Source: Lysobacter sp. BMK333-48F3 (GTDB lineage Bacteria; Pseudomonadota; Gammaproteobacteria; Xanthomonadales; Xanthomonadaceae). Taken from it: a stretch of DNA of 64,000 nucleotides. The stretch is from the NCBI RefSeq assembly GCF_019733395.1, contig NZ_JAIHOO010000001.1, forward strand, positions 1,116,001 through 1,180,000, read 5' to 3'. This document shows, piece after piece, positions 1,198 through 63,791 of the stretch (within the stretch, counting starts at the first letter, position 1; every line of letters begins with the position of its first letter). The notes beneath the pieces were generated by a model. It did not search any database and was not told the origin of the DNA. It saw only the letters and a program-made list of their open reading frames with translations. Position numbers and translations under genes: made by a program.

Positions 1198-3234
1198 TCA
1201 GCGCGCCGCCACCGCGTCCGTGGCGCAACCGTCCCACCAGCACGGCACCGAGTCGCGATACGGCAGTACCGCGCTCCACTTCGGGCTCTCCGCCGCGGTC
1301 TTGAACAGGCTTTCGCGCAGGCCCCAGGCGCCGTACTTGCTGTACGCGCCGGCGAAGTTGAACTGCACGAACACCTGGCCGTCGTTGGCCTGCCAACGCT
1401 CCATCGTTTGCTCGTAGGCCTGGCCCATGCGCGGATCGCGATTGGCGCGCAGCCACAGGGCCTGCCACTTGGCCTGGAACTCGGCCTCCACCGCGGCGCA
1501 GTCCGGCGGATCCTTGATCTTGCACTTGTACGGGCTGCCGTTGATCAGATGCTGGCCGCCCTCGTAGGCGTAGATCGGCTTGGCGTACGTACCGCGGGCG
1601 ATGACGTCGCGATAGTTGCGCATCCAGATGTCGGACTGGGCCAGAGCGCCGCCGACCGCATCGGGCTGACGCCCAGCGGCGATGTCGCTCAGCGGCGTCT
1701 TGGCCAGCGGCTGGCCGTTCTTGTCCCGGGCGAGGATCTCTTCGAACAGCTTGTCCAGGCCGCCGTCGCTCTGGGTGAACCAGGTCTTGACGATGCGGTC
1801 GCGGTAAGCGTGCTCGGACATGTAGACGCCAAAATAGGGCGCGATCGCCACCGCATCGAAGCTGGCGGAGCAGGGCTTGCCCAGAATCGCCGCCGCCTTC
1901 GGACACGGCAGCAGCTCGTACTCGGCGGTCCAGGTCGTCGCCGCCTGCGCATTCACCACGCATTCCACTCGCCCCGCCTCGGCGCCGAACTCGGCCTTGA
2001 CCAGGTCGCACAGCTGCGCGGCACGCATCGCGTGCCAGTTCTGCTGCCAGCCGTAAGGCGTGGTGTTCGGATCGTCGTCCGTTTCCGGATCGCCCCACAG
2101 GCCGACCGACTGGTCGTACTGCCACTTATAGTTGTCCCAGAAGCCGCCGTTCCAGGGTTCGTTGGTGTATTCGAGGATCAGCTTGGCCTTGGGGTGCAGA
2201 TTGGCCTTGACGGTGCGCGCGAACCGCTGCGCGTAATCGTCGTTGGCCTGGGTCGGCAGGTTGATCCAGGCGTCGGCCTTCAGCGTATTGGCCAGATCGA
2301 TCATCACGCCCACCGGCACGCCGTAGGGCCCGGTCCAGGTCGCGTCGGTCTTCATCGGACGATCCGCCCAGTCGGCGAGCTTGGAGCTGTTGGTGCGGCC
2401 CCAATCCATGAAACGCAAGGTGCGCATGCCGCTGAGGTCTGCCAGGAAGGTCGGGAACCACACCTGGGTCTTGGACAGCGTTTCCAGGGACACGTAGTCG
2501 CCGTCGCAGCTCGCGTCGCCCGGCACGTAAACGTTCCTCGCCGCTGCGCACACGCCGCCCGGCGGAATCACGCGGATATTGCGGATGTGGTCGCCGGCCG
2601 TGGTCGACCTGATCCTGACCAGGAAGCCGCCGCCTTCGTCCTGGCCGGAGTTGCTGACCCGCACCAGGTCGCGGCCCTTGGACGCGGAGACCAACGAACC
2701 GATGCCGTCGTATTCGATCGTACCGCTGCCCTCGTACAGCACGGTATAGACGCCGGCCGGATGATCGCCGCGGTCGCCCTGGAACAGGTCCGCGACCACG
2801 TAGCGATACTTGACTTCGCCGTCGCCGGCCGCGGGCAGGCTCTTGACCCAGCCGTTCTCGTCCAGATCCAGCCGGTCCGCTTCGCCGGTATCCCAGACCC
2901 CGTCCTTGGAGGTGATCCAGGGGCTGGCGCGCTTGAACTGGTCGATGGTCGGGAAATCGTTCGACCAGTAATCGAACCCGGACAGGTTCACGCCCATGCC
3001 GCCGTAATGCCTTTGCCCCGGCAGCGCCGCGGCAACAGCCGCGACGTGCGCGGGGTCGCGCGGGCTGACCACGGACGGCGCGGCCTGCGGCGGCGCGCTT
3101 GCGCTTCCGCCCGGGGCCTCGCCAACGCTACCGCCGCTGCAGGCCTGCAGGGCGCCGGTCATCGCCACCAGGCACAGCCACTGCGGCCCCGGCATCCGCG
3201 CTGCGGATGCGATGCGGGACTTCGACTTCGACAT
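1198..3234 (-). CDS. Lipoprotein with clan GH-A-like glycoside hydrolase fold
   Basis: A 678-residue protein. The start at 3234 is chosen because GGAGAAGAAG lies just upstream and the next residues form a lipoprotein signal ending in LQAC, so it should be anchored to the envelope. Two acidic motifs fit a retaining clan GH-A (GH5-like) barrel: EYTNEPWNG with Glu359 as probable acid/base, and YAYEGGQ with Glu558 as probable nucleophile. Several Trp-rich segments would suit a sugar-binding cleft. Similar proteins are often named cellulose-binding or hypothetical. The polysaccharide substrate cannot be read from sequence. The next gene downstream on the same strand is the secreted hydrolase at the window edge. 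Confidence 0.7.
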   Translation of the reverse strand: MSKSKSRIASAARMPGPQWLCLVAMTGALQACSGGSVGEAPGGSASAPPQAAPSVVSPRDPAHVAAVAAALPGQRHYGGMGVNLSGFDYWSNDFPTIDQFKRASPWITSKDGVWDTGEADRLDLDENGWVKSLPAAGDGEVKYRYVVADLFQGDRGDHPAGVYTVLYEGSGTIEYDGIGSLVSASKGRDLVRVSNSGQDEGGGFLVRIRSTTAGDHIRNIRVIPPGGVCAAARNVYVPGDASCDGDYVSLETLSKTQVWFPTFLADLSGMRTLRFMDWGRTNSSKLADWADRPMKTDATWTGPYGVPVGVMIDLANTLKADAWINLPTQANDDYAQRFARTVKANLHPKAKLILEYTNEPWNGGFWDNYKWQYDQSVGLWGDPETDDDPNTTPYGWQQNWHAMRAAQLCDLVKAEFGAEAGRVECVVNAQAATTWTAEYELLPCPKAAAILGKPCSASFDAVAIAPYFGVYMSEHAYRDRIVKTWFTQSDGGLDKLFEEILARDKNGQPLAKTPLSDIAAGRQPDAVGGALAQSDIWMRNYRDVIARGTYAKPIYAYEGGQHLINGSPYKCKIKDPPDCAAVEAEFQAKWQALWLRANRDPRMGQAYEQTMERWQANDGQVFVQFNFAGAYSKYGAWGLRESLFKTAAESPKWSAVLPYRDSVPCWWDGCATDAVAAR

Positions 3235-4174
3235 GTCTTCTTCTCCATAAGAATGAGCGGAAGCGGGAGAGCTTCCGACGGCCGCCCGCATACGCGGATC
3301 GTTCCGATGAAACGCGCAGGCGGTTTCGCGCAGCCGCGCATCGATGCGACGCCGCTGGGCGACGCGCCGCGAGCTTACGGCAGCCGCGGACGCATCGGCG
3401 CGGCCGGATGCGTCTTCGACCGCGCGGATGTTCGGAGCTGGGAGCGAGCGCCCGGTCGCCGGCTACGGTCGGCATGGCCGGTGTCGCAATGTCGCGCATG
3501 CGGCGTACGTGTACTGCATATCGGCAAAGCACACTGCACTTCCGTTCGTCGCGATCGAGCGTCCGTTCGTCGCGGCGGCGAAATTTCCCGGCGGCGCTGT
3601 CAACCCGATCGCGGGCAGGGCGTTCTTGCCGGAGTCGGACGGACCCGCGCGCGCATCGTCGCTTGCGAACGGTTCGCCGCGCAGCCCCGTCGAGGCGCAG
3701 CGGATTTCGGTATCCCGCTGCCGCATGCAAGGGCATCCCCCTGCGCTCGACCCAGAACAGAACGATCAGACAAGGACGCACACATGAAGCTCGAGCCGAC
3801 GCCGCCTCCTCGCGCAAGAACCGCTCCGGCCGGCGCGATGGATATCGCAGTCCTGCATCGATTCCGCTCGGCGCCGCCGCCGATACGCCGTGGCCGCATG
3901 CCCGACGCCGGGCGCGGCCACGGCGGTTGCGGCGCGATGCCGCACCCCAGGCTTCGACCGGCCTAGTTTCGGCCGGCGCACGGCTGCGCCGCGCTCGTTT
4001 CGGCCGGGCCGAACCGCCGCCGGTCGCGCCCCGCGCAGGCCGTCGGCGGCAACGCGATCCAGACGACTTTCGACTCCGGCCCAGCACCGCCGGCGGACCG
4101 GCCGTGCGCGATCGCCCTGCGCGCCGGCATCGCCGGAACCCTCACCGCCGTCCTATCTTCCCTCCGAGCCCCTC
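3235..4174. other. Long gene-poor divergent intergenic region
   Basis: About 940 bp between the GH-A-like lipoprotein gene (leftward) and the TetR gene (rightward). Open frames exist on both strands but show Arg/Pro-rich, unstructured translations typical of GC-rich shadow frames. The only one with a plausible ribosome site is a 60-codon frame at 3784-3966 (AAGGA about 8 bases upstream); it resembles nothing I know. The region probably holds the divergent promoters. Confidence 0.5.
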
Positions 4175-4816
4175 ATGTCCCCCGCCCACACACGCGAAGG
4201 CATCGGTACGCGCCGCTCCCGCATCCTGCGCACCGCGCTCGAATGCTTCCTGAATTTCGGCTACCAGAAGACCTCGATCGAAGATATCGCCCGGCGATCC
4301 GGCCTGGCGCGCACCTTGGTCTATCGGATCTTCCGCAACAAAGAGGACGTGTTCTCCGCCGTATTCGAACAGTGGCTGGCGTCGCGCCATCCGGCCGCGC
4401 GGACGATCGCCGCATCCAAGCAAACCGCTTGCGAGCGCCTGAGCGCGGTGATGGAACTGCTGGTGATCGCCCCCTGGCGGGAGATGGCCGGCGCGCCGAT
4501 GGCCGGGCAGTACTACGAAGTCTGCCGCCGGCTGATTCCGGAGCATCTGGACAATCACCGCCAGGTCCTGCGTCGCTGCACCGAGTCGGTGCTGGGCGAC
4601 GAGTTGGCCGCTGAAGTCTTCCTGCTTGCACTGGATGGCCTGCTCGCCAGCGCACCGTCCGCGGAAGCGCTCCGGCAGCGGGTGGCGCTGCTGATCGATC
4701 GCTTCGCACCGCCTCCCGCGCCCCGTTTCGGCCTGCCCAGCGTCGCGCCGGAGCGGCTGGCCGGAGCGTCCCGGCCCTACCGGCCCGCCCTATCGCCATC
4801 GCTGTATCGACCGTAG
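4175..4816 (+). CDS. TetR/AcrR family transcriptional regulator
   Basis: A 213-residue regulator. Residues about 11-57 form the TetR DNA-binding domain: a first helix ILRTALECFLNFGYQKTS, then IEDIARRSGLARTLVYRIF and NKEDVF. The rest is a helical ligand-binding domain without recognisable specificity. The ATG at 4175 begins just before the conserved arginine-rich N-terminus; longer readings upstream are Arg/Pro-rich and unconvincing. The DUF1800 gene starts 80 bp downstream on the same strand with its own ribosome site, so the regulator may control the DUF1800/DUF1501 pair, the divergent lipoprotein gene, or both. The effector is unknown. Confidence 0.85.
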   Translation: MSPAHTREGIGTRRSRILRTALECFLNFGYQKTSIEDIARRSGLARTLVYRIFRNKEDVFSAVFEQWLASRHPAARTIAASKQTACERLSAVMELLVIAPWREMAGAPMAGQYYEVCRRLIPEHLDNHRQVLRRCTESVLGDELAAEVFLLALDGLLASAPSAEALRQRVALLIDRFAPPPAPRFGLPSVAPERLAGASRPYRPALSPSLYRP

Positions 4817-4896
4817 CCCATCGCCGTCCATCGTCCGCGCCCGGCGCCGTCGTTGCCGCGACACCGGATGCGCGACACCACATAGAGGGGAACTCC

Positions 4897-6678
4897 ATGT
4901 CCTTGCAACGCATACGCATCCGAGCGCCGGGCTATGCCGCCCTGGCGCTGCTGACATTCGCCTTGGCCGCCTGCGACAGGCCCGCTCCCAGCGCCGCGAC
5001 CGCGCCGATGGCGCGCGCACCGCAGTCCGTTCGCACAGCCGCCCAGGCGGTATCCGACGCCGCGCCGATGGCGGTCGAATCCGACGCCGCGGCCGCGCGC
5101 TTCCTGGCCCAGGCCACCTTCGGCCCGACCCTGGACGACATCGCCCACCTGCGCCGGCTCGGCAGCTACGAGCGCTGGATCGACGAGCAGTTCGCGCTGC
5201 CGGCGTCCTCGCATGCGCGCTATCTGCATGCCTTGCAACCGGACCCGCCCGACACCGGCATCGACGACGACCAGCGCCTGGAGGGCTGGCTGCAGATGGC
5301 GATCGGCGGCACGGACGGGCTCACTCCCGGCCTGGTCCACCGCGACCAGTTGCGCCAGCGGGTCGCCTTCGCGCTCAGCGAAATCCTGGTGATCTCGGCC
5401 GCCGGTATGCAACAGCGCGCCGGCTTCTCGACCAGCAGCTACTACGACGTATTGGTCGAAGACGGGTTGGGCAATTACCGAACGCTGCTGGAACGGGTGA
5501 CCCTGCATCCGGCGATGGGCAAGTACCTGTCGATGCTCGGCAACGAGAAACCCGACCCGCTGCTCAACATCCGTCCCGACGAAAACTATGCGCGCGAAGT
5601 GATGCAGTTGTTCAGCGTCGGGCTGATCCGGCTGAACCCTAACGGCACGCCGCTGCGCGTCGACGGCAAGACCGTGCCGACCTACGGCCAGGACACGATC
5701 CAGGGCTTCGCCCACGTGTTCACCGGCTGGTCGTACCGCGGTTGCGTGCGCTTCCGCAACTGCAAGGCCAACCGCATCGATCCGGTGCGCGAGCAGCCGA
5801 TGGCGGCGTATCCGGAGTTCCACGCCAGCGCGCAGTCCAAGCAACTGCTCAAGTACCCGGGCGTCGCCCTGCCCGACGGCGTACTGGCGGCCGGCGGCTC
5901 GCCCGAGAGCGACCTGCGCGCGGCGCTGGACAATATCTTCCACCACCCCAACGTCGGCCCCTTCATCGGCCGCCAGCTGATCCAGCGCCTGGTGACCAGC
6001 AACCCCAGCCGTCCCTACGTCGCCCGCGTCGCGGCCAAATTCGACGATAACGGCGCCGGCGTGCGCGGCGACATGCAGGCGGTGGTCAAGGCCATCCTGC
6101 TCGACCCGGAGGCTCGCGCCGCGGTCGCGCCGGAACACTTCGGCAAAGTGCGCGAACCGATGCTGCGCCTGACCCACCTGTGGCGGGCCATGGACGCGCG
6201 CAGCCGCAGCGGCCGGTATGTCGCGCGCAGTCCCGACTACTACCAGCGCAACCTCGGCCAGTACCCGCTCGGCTCGCCGTCGGTGTTCAACTTCTTCCGC
6301 CCCGACTTCATGCCGATGGGCGAAATGAGCGAGCTGCGCCTGGCCGCGCCGGAGCTGTCGCTGGCCAACGATTCGCTGATCCCGGCGACCAACAACCTGT
6401 GGTGGACCCTGCTGCGCTCGTACCACACCGGCAACCCCGACCAGCCCGACAGCGCGATCCTGATGGACTACCGCCGCGACCTGCCGCTGGCGGCCGCCCC
6501 CGGCGCCCTGCTCGACCGCTACGACCTGCTGTTCCTGTCCGGGCAGATGTCGCCGGCGATGCGCCAGGTGCTGCTGCGCCGGCTCGAAGACACGCGCAAC
6601 GACGACGGCGGCCTGGCCCGGGTGCAGCTGGCGCTGTACCTGATCCTCAACTCGCCCGAATACAACGTCCAAAAGTGA
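4897..6678 (+). CDS. DUF1800 domain-containing lipoprotein
   Basis: A 593-residue protein starting after AGAGGGGAA. The N-terminus is a lipoprotein signal ending in LAAC (Cys26 region). The body carries DUF1800 hallmarks: RFLAQATFGPT, then YERWIDEQF, DQLRQRVAFALSEILV, the stretch NYAREVMQLFSVGL, and PSVFNFFRPDF near the C-terminus. DUF1800 proteins are almost always encoded next to DUF1501 proteins, as here, with only 8 bp between the genes. Their biochemical role is not established; surface or export-linked functions have been proposed. The gene follows a TetR regulator and probably forms one transcription unit with the downstream partner. Confidence 0.9.
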   Translation: MSLQRIRIRAPGYAALALLTFALAACDRPAPSAATAPMARAPQSVRTAAQAVSDAAPMAVESDAAAARFLAQATFGPTLDDIAHLRRLGSYERWIDEQFALPASSHARYLHALQPDPPDTGIDDDQRLEGWLQMAIGGTDGLTPGLVHRDQLRQRVAFALSEILVISAAGMQQRAGFSTSSYYDVLVEDGLGNYRTLLERVTLHPAMGKYLSMLGNEKPDPLLNIRPDENYAREVMQLFSVGLIRLNPNGTPLRVDGKTVPTYGQDTIQGFAHVFTGWSYRGCVRFRNCKANRIDPVREQPMAAYPEFHASAQSKQLLKYPGVALPDGVLAAGGSPESDLRAALDNIFHHPNVGPFIGRQLIQRLVTSNPSRPYVARVAAKFDDNGAGVRGDMQAVVKAILLDPEARAAVAPEHFGKVREPMLRLTHLWRAMDARSRSGRYVARSPDYYQRNLGQYPLGSPSVFNFFRPDFMPMGEMSELRLAAPELSLANDSLIPATNNLWWTLLRSYHTGNPDQPDSAILMDYRRDLPLAAAPGALLDRYDLLFLSGQMSPAMRQVLLRRLEDTRNDDGGLARVQLALYLILNSPEYNVQK

Positions 6679-6686
6679 GGTCCGCC

Positions 6687-8075
6687 ATGAATAGACGCAC
6701 GTTCCTCGGCCAGTCGCTGCTGGCCGCCGTCGGCGCCGGTGCCGCCTATGCCGCCCCCTCGGGCCTGAACCTGCTCGGCGCGGCGATCGACCGCTACGGC
6801 CCCGGTCAGTTCGACGACTACAAGGCGCTGGTGATGGTGTTCCTCCACGGCGGCAACGACGGCTTCAACACCGTGGTGCCGCTGGAAGGCGCCTACTACG
6901 ACCGCTACGCCGCGGCCCGCGCGACCCTCGCCCTGCCGGCCTCGGCCTTGCTGCCGCTGGACGCGCTGCCGGGCGGCGGCGCCTCGGACGGCGCGCGCTA
7001 CGGCCTGCAATCGGCGTTGAGCGAAACCGACGAGATCGGCACCACCGGCCTGCAGCGGCTGTTCGGCCGCGGCGCCGCCGCCGTGCTGGGCAACGTCGGC
7101 ACCCTGATCCGGCCGACCGACAAGGACGCCTACCTCGGCAACCGGGTGCCGCTGCCGCCGCAGTTGTTCTCGCACTTCGACCAGGCCCAGTACTGGCAGA
7201 TCTCGCGCAACGACGACAGCCGCCGGCTCGGCTGGGGCGGCCGCATCGCCGATGCGATGGCTCCGGTCAACGGCGACACCGCAGTGCCGATGCTCATCTC
7301 GATCAATGCCGCCGCGACGCTGGCGCGCGCCGCCAGCCTCGACCAATACGTGCTGCACCAGACCGGCCCGATGCTGATGACCCCGGCCAACGCCGACACC
7401 CGCCAGGCCATGCAGGACCTGGTCGCGCCGGACCTGCAGGCGCATGCGATGGAACGCAGCTACGCCGGCTCGTACCGGCGCGCGCGCGACGTCGGCCAGG
7501 CGGTCACCGAAGCCCTGGCCAGCGTGGCCCCGCCGACCACGCCGTTTCCCGACACCGGCCTGGGCGGCGCGCTGCAGATGGTTGCGCACGCGATCGCCGC
7601 ACGCAACGCGCTCGGCCACCGCCGGCAGATCTACTGCGTCTCCCTGGGCGGCTTCGACACCCACGACGACCAATTGCTCGAACACCCGACCTTGCTGAGC
7701 ACGCTGTCGCAAGCGCTGACCGCATTCCACGAGGCCACGGTCGAACTCGACATCGACCGCGGCGTCACCGCCTTCACCGCCTCGGACTTCGGCCGCACCC
7801 TGTCGTCCAACGGCGACGGCTCCGACCACGGCTGGGGCTCGCACCACTTCGTCGTCGGCGGCGCCGTACGCGGCGGCCGCTACTACGGCCGCATGCCCGA
7901 CCTCAGCGTCGACGGCCCCGACGACGGCGGCCAGGGCCGGATCATCCCCACCACCTCGGTCGACCAATACGCCGCCACCCTGGCCCGCTGGTTCGGCCTG
8001 GGCGAGGACGACATCGACTCGATCCTGCCGAACCTGCGCAACTTTCCGGTGCGGGATTTGGGGTTTTTGGGGTGA
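6687..8075 (+). CDS. DUF1501 domain-containing protein, Tat-type signal
   Basis: A 462-residue protein starting 8 bp after the DUF1800 stop. The N-terminus MNRRTFLGQSLLAAVG has a twin-arginine motif followed by a hydrophobic stretch, so folded export through Tat is likely. The body matches the DUF1501 (sulfatase-like fold) family: VMVFLHGGNDGFNTVVPL, QYWQISRND, SLGGFDTHDDQL, and the C-terminal TASDFGRTLSSNGDGSDHGW followed by HHFVVGGAV. Histidines and aspartates in these motifs would fit a metal site of the alkaline-phosphatase superfamily, but no enzymatic activity is proven for the family. It is the constant partner of DUF1800. Confidence 0.9.
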   Translation: MNRRTFLGQSLLAAVGAGAAYAAPSGLNLLGAAIDRYGPGQFDDYKALVMVFLHGGNDGFNTVVPLEGAYYDRYAAARATLALPASALLPLDALPGGGASDGARYGLQSALSETDEIGTTGLQRLFGRGAAAVLGNVGTLIRPTDKDAYLGNRVPLPPQLFSHFDQAQYWQISRNDDSRRLGWGGRIADAMAPVNGDTAVPMLISINAAATLARAASLDQYVLHQTGPMLMTPANADTRQAMQDLVAPDLQAHAMERSYAGSYRRARDVGQAVTEALASVAPPTTPFPDTGLGGALQMVAHAIAARNALGHRRQIYCVSLGGFDTHDDQLLEHPTLLSTLSQALTAFHEATVELDIDRGVTAFTASDFGRTLSSNGDGSDHGWGSHHFVVGGAVRGGRYYGRMPDLSVDGPDDGGQGRIIPTTSVDQYAATLARWFGLGEDDIDSILPNLRNFPVRDLGFLG

Positions 8076-8125
8076 GCTTACGGGCCGCGCAGTCCTCCTC
8101 GCGGCCGCGGAAACCCGCCCTGTTC

Positions 8126-8149
8126 GACCCGGCCGGCATCGGCCGGGTC
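8126..8149. terminator. Hairpin between convergent genes
   Basis: A perfect 10-bp stem (GACCCGGCCG / CGGCCGGGTC) with loop GCAT lies between the converging DUF1501 gene and the lipoprotein gene. There is no T-tract on either side, so a terminator role rests on position and stem strength. Confidence 0.45.
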
Positions 8150-8193
8150 GCGCTCTGATTGCCTCGCCTCGGATGCCGCGCCCGGTGCGCGCC

Positions 8194-8856
8194 TCAAGCT
8201 CCAGGCTTCGGTACGATGCCGCGGATCCGCACCAACGGCGCGAAGTAGGCATGGACCACGGCGACCTCCTCCGCCACGTAGGCCTGCGAGACCTCCGGGA
8301 AAAAACCGACGTTGCCGCGGAACCCGCCGGTTTTGGAACCGGGGCCGGATTTCTTCACCGTATAGGTGACCTTACGCTGGTCTTGGCTGATCCGGGGGGC
8401 GTAGCCCCGAGGGAAATCTTTGCGGATCAGTTGCAGTGGGGGCAGGAAACGAGTTCCAGCCGGGGCTGTTACCGACACGTGGCATTTTCTTGACTGTCCG
8501 ACTTTTGATTTGCACTTTTTCGTGCTGACGATCGGGCACTGCGCCTGCTCGTACGCCGTCAACCGCTCGTTTCGCAGATCTTCGTAGACCTGGTCGACTC
8601 GACGGTTCAGATTCACCGCCGCCGGCTCCGGCCCGAACTCGGCGCTCTCCTTTCGCCATTTGGCCATCAGCGTGACTGCCAGGGCATCCAACTGCTGTTT
8701 TCGCTCCTGCAGATGGAAGGCCGGACGCGGCGGCGGCCGGCCGAAGCAAGCCACAACCTCCGTTTTCTCCGTAAGCGACTTGTTTTCGCATCCGGACAAT
8801 ATCGCTGCGGCGGCGCACACCACCAGGCCGCCTTTCAACACCGATTTAAGGTTCAT
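8194..8856 (-). CDS. Hypothetical lipoprotein
   Basis: A 220-residue protein. The start at 8856 is supported by GGGGGGAG upstream and an immediate lipoprotein signal (MNLKSVLKGG to ILSGC). The mature part is basic in the middle and has a segment with several Cys (around QCPIVSTKKCKSK) that could form disulfides. I recognise no family. Third-position GC is visibly lower than in neighbouring genes, hinting at later acquisition. It is convergent with DUF1501 and divergent from the LuxR-type regulator, whose start is about 120 bp away. Confidence 0.65.
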   Translation of the reverse strand: MNLKSVLKGGLVVCAAAAILSGCENKSLTEKTEVVACFGRPPPRPAFHLQERKQQLDALAVTLMAKWRKESAEFGPEPAAVNLNRRVDQVYEDLRNERLTAYEQAQCPIVSTKKCKSKVGQSRKCHVSVTAPAGTRFLPPLQLIRKDFPRGYAPRISQDQRKVTYTVKKSGPGSKTGGFRGNVGFFPEVSQAYVAEEVAVVHAYFAPLVRIRGIVPKPGA

Positions 8857-8974
8857 GCGGGCTCCCCCCTTTTTTGGACTCGCGCATCGGCGCACTTCGC
8901 CGACGCGTAGTTGATAGAGCCGCGACCGGGGCGGAAGATACTTCCAAATGCGGCTTGACGCCGAGAGGGAAGCC

Positions 8975-10108
8975 ATGGCAGGCACCACCATCGAAAGAGT
9001 ACTGGAACCGCTTTACGCCTCGATCGCGGAACCGGCACGGCTGCGCGAGTTCTGCTCCCGCCTGGCCGACGCTACGGGCAGCCATGTCGGCGCGGTGATG
9101 ACGCAGGACCTGCGCCTGCCAGGAGGCCGTCTCGACCTGGTGGTCGGCGGCGATGCGCAGGAAGCAGCACGTTACGAGCTGGAGTTCGCGGCCGATAATC
9201 TCTGGCTGCAACGCGGCGCCCACCGTCTGGCGACCGGTGCCGTACTGGATAGCGACGATTTCGTCCCGCGTCGCGAACTCCGTCTCAGCCGGTACTACAA
9301 CGAGTACCTGCGGGCGCACGATGTCGAGCAGTCCGTCGCCTTGTGCGCGCACTTCGACGGCAAGAACGTGGTTACGGCCACCGTCTGCCGGTCCGGCAGG
9401 CTGCGTCCATACACCAAGCAACACTTGGACGTGTTGCGGCAAGTGGCTCCGCATTGGGTCAACGCCTATGCGCTGCTGCGCCGGATCAAGGGCCTGGAAC
9501 AACGCATAAACTCGTTGGAAAGCGCAGTGGACAGACTGCCCGTTGCCGTGTTTCTACTCGACGCCGCCGGCCGCGTGGTTCGCTGCAATGCCGCTGCGCA
9601 GCCGCTACTCAGCAGCGGCCGCCTGCGCAGCACGCCGACCGGCCTGGCCGCCACCGGGCGGGCCGCGGCCCCGTTCCACGCCCTGGTGCAAGCGGCAACG
9701 ACCGGCATCCTGCACGACGGCCAACTGCAGCGACGCGGCGGCAACCTGACCCTGCACGCAGCCGAAGGACCGGCCGACTGGGTCGCGGCCATTCACCCAT
9801 TGTCGAGCGCGTTGAGCGCCGACGATCGATCCGTCGCGATGCTGATCGTCCAGCCGAAAATCGCCTCGGACACCCCCTCGTTCCGCAGCCTGCTGCGCAG
9901 CGCCTTCGACCTGACCGGGGCCGAGGCCGCGTTGGCGGCGGCGCTGTACCGGCATGCCGACCTGGCCGCCGCCGCCCAGACCTGCGGCATCACCGCACCG
10001 ACCGCGAAGACCCGCATCCAGGCCGTTTACGACAAGACCGGCGAACACGGGCAAGCGGCCCTTATGCGCTTGTTGGCGGCGATCGCGACGTCGAGCGGCA
10101 ATCTCTGA
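8975..10108 (+). CDS. LuxR-type helix-turn-helix regulator with PAS-like domain
   Basis: A 377-residue protein. The first ~170 residues are an uncharacterised sensor-like region. Residues ~180-295 contain a PAS-like core (VDRLPVAVFLLDAAGRVVRCN). The C-terminal ~60 residues match the LuxR/GerE helix-turn-helix: FDLTGAEAALAAALYRHAD, then AAAQTCGITAPTAKTRIQAVYDKTG. The ATG at 8975 has AGAGGGA upstream; an in-frame ATG at 8948 is possible. The gene is divergent from a lipoprotein gene and lies just before the tRNA that marks the start of an accessory region. Targets and signal are unknown. Confidence 0.8.
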   Translation: MAGTTIERVLEPLYASIAEPARLREFCSRLADATGSHVGAVMTQDLRLPGGRLDLVVGGDAQEAARYELEFAADNLWLQRGAHRLATGAVLDSDDFVPRRELRLSRYYNEYLRAHDVEQSVALCAHFDGKNVVTATVCRSGRLRPYTKQHLDVLRQVAPHWVNAYALLRRIKGLEQRINSLESAVDRLPVAVFLLDAAGRVVRCNAAAQPLLSSGRLRSTPTGLAATGRAAAPFHALVQAATTGILHDGQLQRRGGNLTLHAAEGPADWVAAIHPLSSALSADDRSVAMLIVQPKIASDTPSFRSLLRSAFDLTGAEAALAAALYRHADLAAAAQTCGITAPTAKTRIQAVYDKTGEHGQAALMRLLAAIATSSGNL

Positions 10109-61120: not shown

Positions 61121-62479
61121 ATGGCCACCCGCAAAGGCAACGACGACGACAACACCCGCCCGCCCAAGCAAGGCGAATTCCGCGGCGGCGGCCCGGTCCG
61201 CACCGCGCTGATCCGCGGCGAGACCTTCCGCGCCAAGGCCGTGCAATACGTCGAGATCGACGGCATGGCGATGTTCGAAGGCGACATCGTCCTGGGCACG
61301 GTCGAGGAAGTGGAAGCCGTATCGGACATGCTGCGCGAAGAAGCCTCCGCCGGCGTGGCGATGGCGGTGGCGATCAGCGGCTCGCAGTTCCGCTGGCCGG
61401 GTTGCAGGATCCCCTACACCATCGACCCGGGCTTGCCGAACCAGGCCCGCGTCACCGACGCCATCGCGCACTGGGAAGCCAACACCCGCTTCCGTTTCGT
61501 GGTGCGGACCAACGAAGCCGACTACGTCACCTTCCGTCCCGGCAGCGGCTGCTCGGCCCAGGTCGGCCGGCGCGGCGGCCAGCAGTTCGTCAACCTCGCC
61601 AACACTTGCAGCCTGGGCAACACCATCCACGAGATCGGCCACGTGGTCGGCCTGTGGCACGAGCAAAGCCGCGAGGACCGCGACTCCTTCGTGCGCATCG
61701 AGTGGGCCAACATCACCTCCGGCTTCGAGCACAACTTCAACCAGCACATCAGCGACGGCGACGACATCGGCGGCTACGACTACGGCTCGATCATGCACTA
61801 CCCGCGCAACGCGTTCTCGTCCAACGGCCAGGACACCATCGTGCCGGTCGGCGCGGTGCCGCCGGGCACGGTGATCGGCCAGCGCAACGGCCTGTCGCCG
61901 GGCGACATCGCCGCGGTCAACTCGTTCTGCCCGCTGGTCACGATCAAGGAGAAGCTCAAGGAAGCGCCGCTGGACACGCTCAAGGAAAAGACCAAGGAAG
62001 TTCCGCTGGACACGCTCAAGGAGAAGATCAAGGAAGCGCCGCTGGATACGCTCAAGGAAAAGACCAAGGAAGCCCCGCTGGACACCCTCAAGGAGCTGCG
62101 CAAGGACGTCATCAGCGACACGATCAAGGAGCAGATCGCCGATACGCGCAAGGAAGGCGTGTTCGACCCGGGCCCGACCCTGGCCGAGAACCTGACCACG
62201 CCGGGCCGCGGCGCGGTGATCAACCCGGTACTGCCCGGCGGAGTGCGCGGCGCGGTGCCGTTCGCGATCGCCACCGGCGCCGGCGCGCTGCCGGGCGCGG
62301 CCGGCGACGGCGGCGCGGGCGATGCGGAGATCGCCGACGCGGTCGTCGCGCTGGATGCGCAATTGCAGCAACTGGCCGAGGAACTGGCCCGCGCCGACGC
62401 CGCGCGCGCGGCGTTGCAGGCCCAGTACGACGAAACCGCCGCGCTGCTGGCGCAGATCGCCCAGTCCGGCCAGGGCTGA
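61121..62479 (+). CDS. Astacin (M12A) zinc metalloprotease with 12-residue tandem repeats
   Basis: A 452-residue protein. Residues ~85-270 are an astacin domain: HEIGHVVGLWHEQ (zinc His170, His174, His180; catalytic Glu171) and Met-turn SIMHYPRN with Tyr227. No signal peptide. From residue 276 a 12-residue unit of type KEKxKEAPLDTL occurs four times, then two degenerate copies (to ~347); DNA 61946-62125 shows a matching 36-bp periodicity. A Gly/Pro-rich linker and a terminal coiled-coil-like helix (residues ~402-446, LDAQLQQLAEELARADAARA) follow. The ATP-grasp ligase gene begins 24 bp downstream. The repeat may be substrate of that ligase. Confidence 0.92.
   Translation: MATRKGNDDDNTRPPKQGEFRGGGPVRTALIRGETFRAKAVQYVEIDGMAMFEGDIVLGTVEEVEAVSDMLREEASAGVAMAVAISGSQFRWPGCRIPYTIDPGLPNQARVTDAIAHWEANTRFRFVVRTNEADYVTFRPGSGCSAQVGRRGGQQFVNLANTCSLGNTIHEIGHVVGLWHEQSREDRDSFVRIEWANITSGFEHNFNQHISDGDDIGGYDYGSIMHYPRNAFSSNGQDTIVPVGAVPPGTVIGQRNGLSPGDIAAVNSFCPLVTIKEKLKEAPLDTLKEKTKEVPLDTLKEKIKEAPLDTLKEKTKEAPLDTLKELRKDVISDTIKEQIADTRKEGVFDPGPTLAENLTTPGRGAVINPVLPGGVRGAVPFAIATGAGALPGAAGDGGAGDAEIADAVVALDAQLQQLAEELARADAARAALQAQYDETAALLAQIAQSGQG
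61946..62125 (+). repeat. Five 36-bp tandem repeats inside the astacin gene
   Basis: Encodes residues 276-335: four near-identical 12-residue units (KEKxKExPLDTL) and one diverged unit (KELRKDVISDTI). Units with Thr at the fourth position read TKE(A/V)PLD. Confidence 0.9.
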
Positions 62480-62503
62480 GCCGCCACCGAGGGAGGACGT
62501 GCC

Positions 62504-63475
62504 GTGATCCTGGTGATATCGCACGACGAGGACATCCACGCCCGGCGCGTGGTCGACCACCTGCAGTCGATGGACCAGCCGGTGCTGTTGTTCGATCTGG
62601 CCGAATTGCCGGATCGCGCCACGCTCTCGATCGAGTACGCCGCCGACGCGCGCCCGCGCATCGACTACGCCCGCGCCGGCGGCGAGCGCTACGCCCTGGA
62701 CCGGGTCAGCGCGGCATGGTGGCGCCGGCCGCAGGCGCCGGACCTGTCCAGCGTCACCGACGCCAACGCGCACCTGTTCACCGCCAACGAATGGAACGAG
62801 GCCTTGAACGGGCTGTGGCGGCTGCTCGGCGATGCGCGCTGGATGAACGACCCCGGCCGCGACGACGCCGCCTCGCGCAAGGCCGCGCAACTGCGCGTCG
62901 CCGCCGAGCTGGGGCTGAAGGTACCGCGCACCCTGATCAGCTCCGACCCGCAACGGGTGCGCGATTTCGTCGCCGCGCGCGGCCCCGGCGCGACCGTGCA
63001 CAAGACCTTTTCCTGCACCCATGCGGTGTGGCGCGAGACGCGCCGCTTCGACGACAGCGACCTGCCGCACCTGGACACGGTGCGGCTGGCGCCGGTGATC
63101 TTCCAGGAGTTCGTGCCGGCCGACGCCGACATCCGGGTCACCGCGGTCGACGGCCAGCTGTTCGCCGCCGAAATCAAGCTCGACCCGGGCAGCGCCGCGG
63201 CCGCCGCCGGCGCGGTCGACTTCCGTCCCAACCTGGGCGACGCCGAGGTGCGCGAGCACGCTCTGCCGGAAGCGCTGCGCGAACGCCTGCGCGCGCTGAT
63301 GCGCAAACTGGGCCTGGTCTACGGCGCGATCGACCTGCGCCGCACGCCGGAAGGCGAGTACTACTTCTTCGAGGTCAATACCGCCGGCGAGTTCTTGTTC
63401 ATCGAACACCGTACCGGTCAGCCGATCGCGCGCGCGGTGGCCGACTGGCTGGCCGGGGTCAGTCGATCCGCTTGA
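62504..63475 (+). CDS. MvdC/MvdD-type ATP-grasp ligase (graspetide synthetase-like)
   Basis: A 323-residue ATP-grasp enzyme, GTG start behind GAGGGAGGA. It fits the RimK-related group that makes graspetides (omega-ester/omega-amide RiPPs): N-terminal MILVISHDEDIHARRVVDHL, the hallmark AAWWRRPQAP (VWYRRP in MvdC/D), RVAAELGLKVPRTLISSDP, a Lys-containing ATP-binding strand TVHKTFSC, and C-terminal metal-binding YYFFEVNTAGEFLFIE plus HRTGQPIARAVADWL. It should ligate Asp/Glu side chains to Ser/Thr/Lys in a peptide. No separate precursor gene was seen; the preceding astacin's repeats are rich in exactly these residues. It overlaps a convergent gene tail-to-tail by 17 bp. Confidence 0.87.
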   Translation: MILVISHDEDIHARRVVDHLQSMDQPVLLFDLAELPDRATLSIEYAADARPRIDYARAGGERYALDRVSAAWWRRPQAPDLSSVTDANAHLFTANEWNEALNGLWRLLGDARWMNDPGRDDAASRKAAQLRVAAELGLKVPRTLISSDPQRVRDFVAARGPGATVHKTFSCTHAVWRETRRFDDSDLPHLDTVRLAPVIFQEFVPADADIRVTAVDGQLFAAEIKLDPGSAAAAAGAVDFRPNLGDAEVREHALPEALRERLRALMRKLGLVYGAIDLRRTPEGEYYFFEVNTAGEFLFIEHRTGQPIARAVADWLAGVSRSA

Positions 63476-63791
63476 CCTGCAGGGTCAGCGCGTCGTCGCC
63501 GGCGCGCAGCGGATAGGACTGCACGGTAACGTAGTCGCCCCGGCCGAGGCGGCCGTCGCCGTCGCTGTCGACGTGCACCCACCAGGTGGCGTCGGCGGCG
63601 TCGATCAGGTCGTCGGCGATCTCGACCTGCAACGGCAGCGACTGGGCGTGTTCGGGCACGGTCTGCGCCCATTCGTCGAGCACCCGCGCCGGCGCGTCCT
63701 CGAACGAGGTGTCGCGCAGCTGCACGCTGACCGCACTGCCGGCGGGCAGTTCGGCGCCGTCGGCGGCGACGATGGTCAGGGCGAGACGCAT
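63459..63791 (-). CDS. YbaY-like (YscW-type) beta-barrel small protein
   Basis: A 110-residue protein without lipoprotein signal. The sequence follows the YbaY/YscW chaperone-like domain: LPAGSAVSVQLRDTSFEDAP, ARVLDEWAQTVPEH, SLPLQVEIADDLIDAAD, and a closing strand DDALTLQVKRID. Also GDGRLGRGDYVTVQSYP. The normal family members are periplasmic lipoproteins; this short form would be cytosolic, or its leader is unrecognised. Its 3' end overlaps the ATP-grasp gene on the opposite strand. It could be an accessory to the astacin/ATP-grasp unit or independent. Confidence 0.7.
   Translation of the reverse strand: MRLALTIVAADGAELPAGSAVSVQLRDTSFEDAPARVLDEWAQTVPEHAQSLPLQVEIADDLIDAADATWWVHVDSDGDGRLGRGDYVTVQSYPLRAGDDALTLQVKRID

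Follow-up and report, generated by a model that had tools for sequence, protein, structure and literature searches.

The subject of this report is a two-gene pair in a 64,000-nucleotide stretch of the Lysobacter sp. BMK333-48F3 genome (contig NZ_JAIHOO010000001.1, positions 1,116,001 to 1,180,000; hereafter the window), in which an astacin metalloprotease bearing a C-terminal tail of charged repeats is encoded just before an ATP-grasp ligase of the MvdC/MvdD type. We consider it likely that the tail is a graspetide-type precursor that is fused to the enzyme, matured by the adjacent ligase and most probably kept on the enzyme. The tail is fused to the protease and paired with the ligase, and this pairing is independent of the enzyme domain. 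The tail would be the substrate of the adjacent ligase.

The astacin open reading frame (ORF; 61121..62479, forward strand, 452 residues) matches the Pfam family Astacin (PF01400) with an E-value of 3.2e-47 and, over residues 26-270, the NCBIfam model of LegP (NF045530) at 302.5 bits, which passes the cut-off of 300. The ligase ORF (62504..63475, forward strand, 323 residues, GTG start) follows after a gap of 24 bp (62480-62503) and carries the motifs AAWWRRP and FFEVNTAGEFLFIE. The sequence-only reading, made before this analysis, had described an astacin with repeats and an ATP-grasp gene 24 bp later, and this is borne out by the ORFs, the motifs and the Pfam matches. Its statement that no free precursor gene lies nearby also stands, as inspection of the ORFs between and beside the two genes revealed no evident precursor-like ORF of at least 40 residues. 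Its astacin-centered framing was correct in that the pairing is real, but proved too narrow, as tyrosinases and proteases of the M43, S8 and V8-like types bear such tails as well.

Association of the ligase with the tail

A scan of GTDB genomes confirmed 544 astacin relatives, of which the best 80 (L035-L114) were taken; it should be noted that these loci are not independent. A ligase is encoded downstream on the same strand in 43 of the 80 loci, and in 42 it scores 342-480 bits, with its domain starting 0-53 bp past the astacin frame. The 42 linked loci span Pseudomonadota, Actinomycetota, Acidobacteriota, Bacteroidota, Chloroflexota and Planctomycetota, such that the search for other genomes with the same protease-ligase pair, which the sequence-only reading had proposed as a check, was positive. 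The exception is the verrucomicrobial locus L061, where a divergent ligase of 150 bits lies 798 bp from the astacin; there, an astacin with a KERKDTKD tail (2003-3394) is followed by a 255-residue ORF (3428-4192) and the ligase (4192-5121).

Linked tails consist of charged repeats, while lectin, Cys-Pro and other tails are unlinked. The unlinked astacins include L058, with DUF346 repeats at its end, and L068, with terminal lectin repeats of the ricin type, as well as others that end in Cys-Pro repeats or in sequence without assignment. The motif PFxLxTPHH sits between the core, i.e., the charged repeats, and a C-terminal helix. In its strict form, this PF motif was found in 35 of 43 ligase loci versus 1 of 37 others, and a tail rich in Lys, Asp and Glu in 27 of 43 versus 0 of 37 (Fisher p 2e-10), where the thresholds for both features were chosen post hoc, once the tails had been seen, and the Fisher test ignores the kinship of the loci. 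A looser measure, the number of Lys residues that have Asp or Glu among the next five residues, sets the two groups apart more clearly: over the 82 residues beyond the astacin domain, it ranges from 3 to 16 for 41 linked tails and from 0 to 3 for 35 unlinked ones, while L114 has 4 and L061 has 23 (L093 and L106 were left out). The shortest linked tails are those of Streptomyces. In Streptomyces malachitofuscus (L101; 7647-9074 and 9040-9495), the core is degenerate while PFVLATTPH and the helix are kept; no ligase lies between the astacin and the YscW-like gene, and the best ligase genome-wide scores 199 bits. This looks like a loss of both core and ligase. The locus L114, from a Nitrosopumilus metagenome-assembled genome (MAG), was scored as unlinked since its contig stops inside the tail; another contig of the same genome (L145, 1-1655) holds tail sequence, then a ligase, then a YscW-like gene. 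The two contigs would thus form one locus, which may be either an archaeal case or a product of mis-binned contigs.

The association also holds at the level of whole genomes. Among 12 genomes checked, all five with a tailed astacin (L040, L048, L078, L085 and L114) contain a ligase of 339-477 bits, as compared to at most 209 bits for the best ligase in the seven without a tail. A further 29 genomes comprised a positive control (L065, 459 bits) and 28 with a ligase-free astacin locus, of which that of L068 alone scored high (464 bits), the other 27 reaching at most 246 bits at the limit used. L068 and L042, the latter a ligase-linked astacin, are contigs of one MAG. Thus, of the combined 35 genomes with a ligase-free astacin locus, a ligase of at least 250 bits was found in one, namely the L042 MAG. 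Within Xanthomonadaceae, 70 of 247 genomes match the ligase at E≤0.001, and in all five that are close (at least 436 bits), an astacin lies directly upstream. With the astacin profile, 6 of 398 Pseudomonadota genomes matched at E≤0.001, with a strong match in the window's own genome alone. The ligase profile found 5 of 346 Actinomycetota genomes (E≤1e-70) and, at E≤1e-60, 11 of 194 cyanobacterial, 5 of 149 Acidobacteriota and 20 of 146 Myxococcota genomes. In cyanobacteria, most matches lie in adjacent pairs, and precursors of a microviridin-like kind can be read at L163 and L172. Of the five Actinomycetota genomes, one was the start genome and one holds the M43 locus L154 described below, while three ligases (L155-L157, 267-270 bits) have no such tail upstream. 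An apparent ligase fusion in genome G206 (an 844-residue ORF) was rejected as a frame artefact, as the astacin lies in another frame.

The pairing persists when the protease family changes, which upholds the earlier claim that the repeats and the ligase belong together. In the actinomycetotal locus L154 (genome G727, the protein being recorded under Miltoncostaea marina), a ligase of 431 bits follows an M43 protease (PF05572, E 3.6e-17) whose tail reads LKFRDDPIDTLKRADDP...PFVLATPHHSMAWA, followed by a helix. In L216 (Burkholderia stagnalis), the ligase overlaps the end of an M43 protease, the core of which contains mostly Thr and Asp (TLATAD, TLSTLD) with a single TLKFIDEP unit, in what would be an ester-type pattern, and is followed by PFVLSTPHHSMAW. 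No YscW-like gene was found in the stretches of L154, which spans 3.9 kb, or L216. YscW therefore seems to be tied to the astacin and the ligase to the tail. Searching with the M43 tail yielded 254 proteins (E≤1e-5, 8000 scored), of which the best 120 were classified and 19 were inspected at both ends. The 120 comprise 89 M43 proteases (including the query), 18 tyrosinases, 6 astacins, 2 subtilases, 2 V8-like proteases and 3 proteins without a Pfam domain. The strict PF..TPHH motif is present in 103 of them, and each protein contains 4 to 15 [KR]xx[DE][DE] units (median 8). In one frameshifted protein (P0193), such repeats run into apparent ligase sequence. A search of plasmids with a tyrosinase tail gave 47 records, none of which covered 80% of the query among the matches listed. 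Since the tail also occurs beyond astacins, on tyrosinases and on proteases of the M43, S8 and V8-like types, it should be considered a module rather than an astacin trait, and an astacin-specific function of the ligase was rejected in view of the M43 loci together with the tyrosinase tails.

A tree was built from 153 ligases in quick mode, with SH-aLRT branch supports. In it, a branch with a support of 83 separates 47 tail-linked ligases, 8 myxobacterial ones and 7 labeled as other (L061, a shorter copy of the window ligase and five others, mostly with long branches) from the remaining 91, which include the cyanobacterial pairs and the two other ligases of the window genome. L042 (astacin), L154 and L216 (M43) and the archaeal L145 cluster with a support of 99. 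L042 and L154 have TLKFxDD units in common, L216 shares the follower and one unit, and L145 shares the PFVLSTPH motif only. By inspection and without statistics, the tail types (PETIKE, TIKE.RKDPI and KK.RDD) seem, in our reading, to track ligase clades. In the Myxococcota loci L190 and L192, a small free protein with repeats or an acidic core, a PWGSP or PFGLE motif and helices precedes a related ligase, and the upstream protein of L187, also from Myxococcota, ends in PFALATPHHFPAAPGR. As these free proteins share the order of core, PF-like motif and helix with the tails, we read the tail as a precursor fused to an enzyme.

Tail, ligase and proposed cross-linking

Within the astacin, the order is FEGDI, the zinc motif, the charged repeats, a Gly/Pro linker, PFAIAT and a long C-terminal helix. 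The charged repeat region, which is the proposed graspetide-type core, covers 61940..62155 (forward strand, residues 274-345). At 61946-62089, it contains four 36-bp units, encoding KEKLKEAPLDTL, KEKTKEVPLDTL, KEKIKEAPLDTL and KEKTKEAPLDTL, among which the codon differences are silent at all unit positions but 4 and 7. The Gly/Pro-rich linker comes after this core. PFAIAT (62258..62275, forward strand) is the local form of PFxLxTPHH, lacking the PHH part, and is proposed as the ligase recognition site. The proposed follower is the long helix at 62318..62464 (forward strand, residues 400-448 in the structure model), where block means of the predicted local distance difference test (pLDDT) for residues 401-450 are 73-92.

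The repeat tail is ancient and constrained. Of 2944 relatives found in a protein search (8000 scored), the best 120 were used; in 119 of these, including the window protein, residues 266-400 contain four or more K[DE] pairs, as against three in the remaining one. In an alignment of 60 homologues, where the repeat register is partly arbitrary, T298, K300 and E301 are invariant and D309, T310, K328, E329, D333, T334, K336, E337, D341, K344 and E345 are each at least 90% kept. In 118 cores taken from the best 120 homologues, Asp or Glu is found at +1 and +5 of Lys at about five times the frequency in shuffled sequences and is rare at +2, +3, +6 and +7; Ser and Cys make up 0.7% and 1.1% of the residues, respectively. 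As this Lys-to-Asp/Glu spacing is strictly periodic, what is conserved is a period of four residues, x[DE]xx. The sequence-only reading had described 12-residue repeats; the four units are indeed present, but the 12-mer appears to be a local form of the 4-residue pattern, found in the window strain and close strains. The likeness to a microviridin core that had been seen in T-K-E-[AV]-P-L-D did not hold, as it occurs in two of the four units and is no conserved pattern among the homologous tails listed. A microviridin-type core (TxKxPSD) was thus rejected, the spacing of T, P and D not being conserved. Between lineages, the core sequence differs wholly (PETIKE, TLKFRDD, FKKLRDDTGG, PKQLLD) while the ligase persists. 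Across the tail types, Lys and Asp/Glu are the constant partners, with Thr often close; in 102 cores made of K-x-x-D-D units, Asp is at +3 and +4 of Lys.

The ligase matches Pfam ATPgraspMvdD (1.7e-9) and RimK (3.3e-5, 24 bits), and its structure model has a pLDDT of 93.4. Among NCBIfam models, its best scores are 232 bits (GRASP_SAV_5884), 189 bits (MvdC) and 159 bits (MvdD), each under the curated cut-off; the window ligase thus represents a separate subfamily. With rimK_fam, the score of 32.7 bits is far from the cut-off of 143.4, such that the protein does not qualify as a RimK glutamate ligase. Its closest solved relatives are graspetide synthetases, enzymes that form rings. The window genome encodes two further ligases of the MvdC/MvdD family. 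One (L115, contig C1 at about 940.5-942.1 kb, 6539-6790 and 6817-8073) lies, by eye, in an apparently ordinary graspetide cluster, together with an ABC-transporter-like ORF and a small ORF that resembles a precursor and contains GGKGDTTHATGPNGDDPGDPDDGAV. The other (L116, C1 at about 5.11 Mb, 6734-9856) lies within a 1041-residue open frame in which the MvdD domain alone matched Pfam (residues 687-791), and both a fusion and a frame artefact are possible.

In the proposed mechanism, the Lys/Thr/Asp/Glu repeats would serve as the core, and the PFxLxTPHH-like motif and long helix would serve as the recognition element, a natural "follower" that replaces an N-terminal leader. The ligase would activate Asp or Glu side chains and join each to a Lys (or Thr) close by, so that small lactam (or lactone) rings would line up along the core. 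As in graspetides, the ligase is an ATP-grasp enzyme of the MvdC/MvdD type and the core contains regularly spaced Thr/Ser/Lys and Asp/Glu. The N-terminal leader of graspetides is not found here, the conserved PF motif and helix lying after the core. Such a placement is plausible, as the fuscimiditide synthetase is reported to work, at about half the rate, on an engineered substrate whose leader was transferred to the C-terminal end (PMC13003496). In corallotide, moreover, a Lys-Asp isopeptide within KxxxD has been proven, according to the passages concerned, and the ligase that makes it is of the same type by NCBIfam (PMC13097080). As Lys and Asp/Glu are constant and the K-x-x-D-D spacing equals that of corallotide, lactams would be favored, with lactones for Thr-type cores. 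The stiffened tail would most likely remain attached and act as a module for stability, targeting or export of the enzyme. The enzyme families that bear such tails are mostly secreted types. Together with the lectin-like repeats that occupy the same position in the two relatives examined (L058 and L068), this makes a role in targeting, anchoring, export or stability the likeliest.

Several points weigh against this explanation and should be considered together. The case is built on sequence and genome context, from which cross-linking is inferred. The DTxKE spacing (+1, +5) is unlike that of corallotide, and the repeat region of the astacin model shows weak helices at low confidence. The strict PF motif is absent in 8 of the 43 ligase loci and in the window copy. 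Adjacency of ligase and tail is known for astacins and M43 proteases, while the tyrosinase, S8 and V8-like proteins are known by their tail alone. L157 (265 bits, on a long branch), which is not preceded by such a tail, falls among the tail-linked L055, L057 and L073 at a support of 99, and only two or three of the eight myxobacterial sister loci can clearly be read as having a free precursor. Finally, the ligase profile matched 1 of 276 Chloroflexota genomes (E≤1e-75), this being the start genome, and yielded no new locus there.

Of the other explanations considered, the one we take most seriously, although it remains doubtful, is that the protease acts as carrier and processing enzyme and cuts off the modified tail as a free graspetide. 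The Gly/Pro-rich linker after the core and the fact that proteases are the commonest carriers among the tail proteins listed would suit such release, yet tyrosinase-tail fusions cannot cut themselves, and the lectin-like repeats in the same place in two relatives suggest a permanently attached module. It is unlikely that the ligase acts on an unlinked peptide, with the peptidase merely supplying or trimming peptides, as Makarova et al. 2022 proposed for two ligase branches (7 and 8), for which passages of that work report unrelated peptidase families and YscW with no precursor detected (PMC8939145). The two other family ligases in the window genome, one of which adjoins precursor-like and ABC-transporter-like ORFs (by eye), are in line with that idea. 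What the ligase-linked proteins have in common, however, is the tail and not the protease: tail-less astacins are mostly without a ligase, two tailed M43 proteins have one, and tyrosinases carry the tail though they are not peptidases, which makes peptide supply unlikely as a common role.

Two further explanations concern the tail itself. That the ligase adds amino acids, in a RimK-like glutamylation, or forms some other side-chain amide on the tail without closing rings is permitted by ATP-grasp chemistry and by the 24-bit RimK domain match. We nonetheless hold this to be quite improbable, given scores of 232, 189 and 159 bits with GRASP_SAV_5884, MvdC and MvdD versus 33 with rimK_fam, and given graspetide synthetases as the nearest solved relatives. 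Least probable, and by our estimate hardly to be expected, is that the repeats form a spacer, salt-bridged or of low complexity, which stays unmodified, and that the ligase is an incidental neighbor. Patterns of Lys and Glu with a period of four can indeed make helices or charged rods, and the model shows weak helices, but Pro is frequent in the cores (11-14%), and the repeats are wholly different between lineages and yet the ligase stays. A fused graspetide-type precursor that is matured by the ligase thus remains our preferred explanation.

Neighboring genes and other tail types

In the protease domain, both hallmarks of M12A astacins, the HExxHxxGxxHE zinc motif and the SxMHY Met-turn, can be recognized. 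The zinc-binding motif, HEIGHVVGLWHEQ, lies at 61628..61666 (forward strand, residues 170-182), and H170, E171, H174 and H180 are unchanged in every aligned homologue. In the propeptide region, E53, G54, D55 and I56 of FEGDI (61274..61288, forward strand) are invariant in 60 sequences; we take FEGDI to resemble the FxGD aspartate switch of pro-astacins. By eye, the window astacin has no obvious signal peptide. The 3' end of the ligase gene is overlapped by a convergent gene for a YscW-like protein (63459..63791, reverse strand, 110 residues; PF09619 at 27.4 bits, cut-off 22.6). A YscW-like relative lies within 1500 bp, on either strand, in 70 of the 80 LegP-like astacin loci, where the profile was iterated on the same loci in which the relatives were counted. 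The YscW-like protein is a steady partner of LegP-like astacins, perhaps as chaperone or inhibitor. PADLOC gave no match for the three proteins submitted.

Other tails have other neighbors. In L050 (748-2223 and 2227-3588) and L060 (854-2404 and 2530-3882), an astacin with Cys-Pro (CPPAPxx) repeats comes directly before a gene for a radical SAM/SPASM protein that includes a PqqD-like domain, with a YscW-like gene next. With the L060 tail as query, 19 proteins were obtained (8 astacins, 8 M4, 2 C1 and 1 S8), each with Cys-Pro repeats. No further radical SAM loci were obtained, as the astacin profile matched 1 of 198 genomes in the phylum of L060 at E≤1e-40, this being the start genome. One Cys-Pro-tailed M4 protease (P0248) ends in a helix-hairpin-helix/DUF4332-like domain (residues 650-709). 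In L056 (4184-5872, 5876-7027 and 7698-9263), an APH-like kinase adjoins a Thr-Pro-tailed astacin, and a LanC-like protein that resembles the LanM C-terminus is encoded near. Next to astacins with short aromatic tails (L075, 3856-4437; L064, L083, L088 and L095-L098), a gene for an acidic protein with repeated APPPD/PGPD-like motifs often precedes the YscW-like gene; the L075 protein has no Pfam match. In L096 (2632-6624, reverse strand), the downstream open frame contains HELTHVVQQTG, which presumably resembles the DUF4157 motif of contractile-injection-associated proteins.

These loci suggest a wider class of matured tails, with the maturase pairing drawn from two Cys-Pro loci and one Thr-Pro locus. 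In this class, which we put forward as a tentative generalization with somewhat less than even chances, secreted-type enzymes (astacin, M43, M4, S8, C1, V8-like proteases and tyrosinase) would have swappable tails, each matured by a neighbor of the type that acts on ribosomally synthesized and post-translationally modified peptides (RiPPs). Lys/Asp tails would be paired with ATP-grasp ligases and Cys-Pro (CPPAP) tails with radical SAM/SPASM enzymes; the partners of Thr-Pro tails might be a kinase and a LanC-like protein. The cross-linked tail would sort, export or anchor the enzyme, such that free RiPPs and protein tails would be two uses of one machinery.

Comparison with known systems

The window-type loci are probably the same as branches 7 and 8 of Makarova et al. 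2022, where, in the passages concerned, two ligase branches are found with unrelated peptidase families, YscW being frequent in branch 7 (PMC8939145). According to these passages, the precursor was not detectable and was expected elsewhere in the genome, and the peptidases were suggested to cut other cell proteins, whereas here, the precursor is read as the tail of the neighboring enzyme. Diverse neighboring proteases are also mentioned for graspetide group 32 of Carter et al. 2026, where they are discussed as maturation or resistance genes; unlike the present reading, the passages on this group mention no fused core (PMC13097080). Indeed, a core fused to an enzyme is described in neither work as far as the respective passages go (PMC8939145, PMC13097080), nor in passages of two papers on graspetides and metalloproteases (PMC13039773, PMC10885120). 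In the open-licence PMC literature, we found nothing that ties graspetides to astacins or tyrosinases, microviridin to astacins, or ATP-grasp ligases to M12 family metallopeptidases. If our explanation is true, the "missing" precursor of the peptidase-linked ligase branches is an enzyme tail, and RiPP-type cross-linking extends beyond small peptides to full-size enzymes via a portable tag. Searches for precursors should then cover protein C-termini, and a natural peptide tag that is stiffened by a ligase becomes available.

As compared to LegP (NF045530), which it matches, the window protein has the repeat tail and the ligase in addition. With corallotide, as described in the passages concerned, the window system shares a long repetitive substrate and a TIGR04187-type ligase, the KxxxD Lys-Asp isopeptide being that of corallotide; it differs in that corallotide is made from a free precursor of ~22 kDa with 2OG oxygenase and beta-lactamase partners and is reported from Corallococcus only (PMC13097080). 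In contrast to microviridin, the window system has one ligase rather than two, and the PFFARFL leader is absent from the surrounding ORFs. By inspection of the ORFs, no ABC transporter was noticed beside the window ligase. With graspetides in general (microviridin, plesiocin and fuscimiditide), it shares an MvdC/MvdD-type synthetase, a core of spaced Lys/Thr and Asp/Glu and a Pro-Phe motif in the recognition element, of which PFFARFL is the microviridin version. What sets the window system apart is that it has a single ligase, that its core is fused to a full-size enzyme and that its recognition element would be C-terminal.

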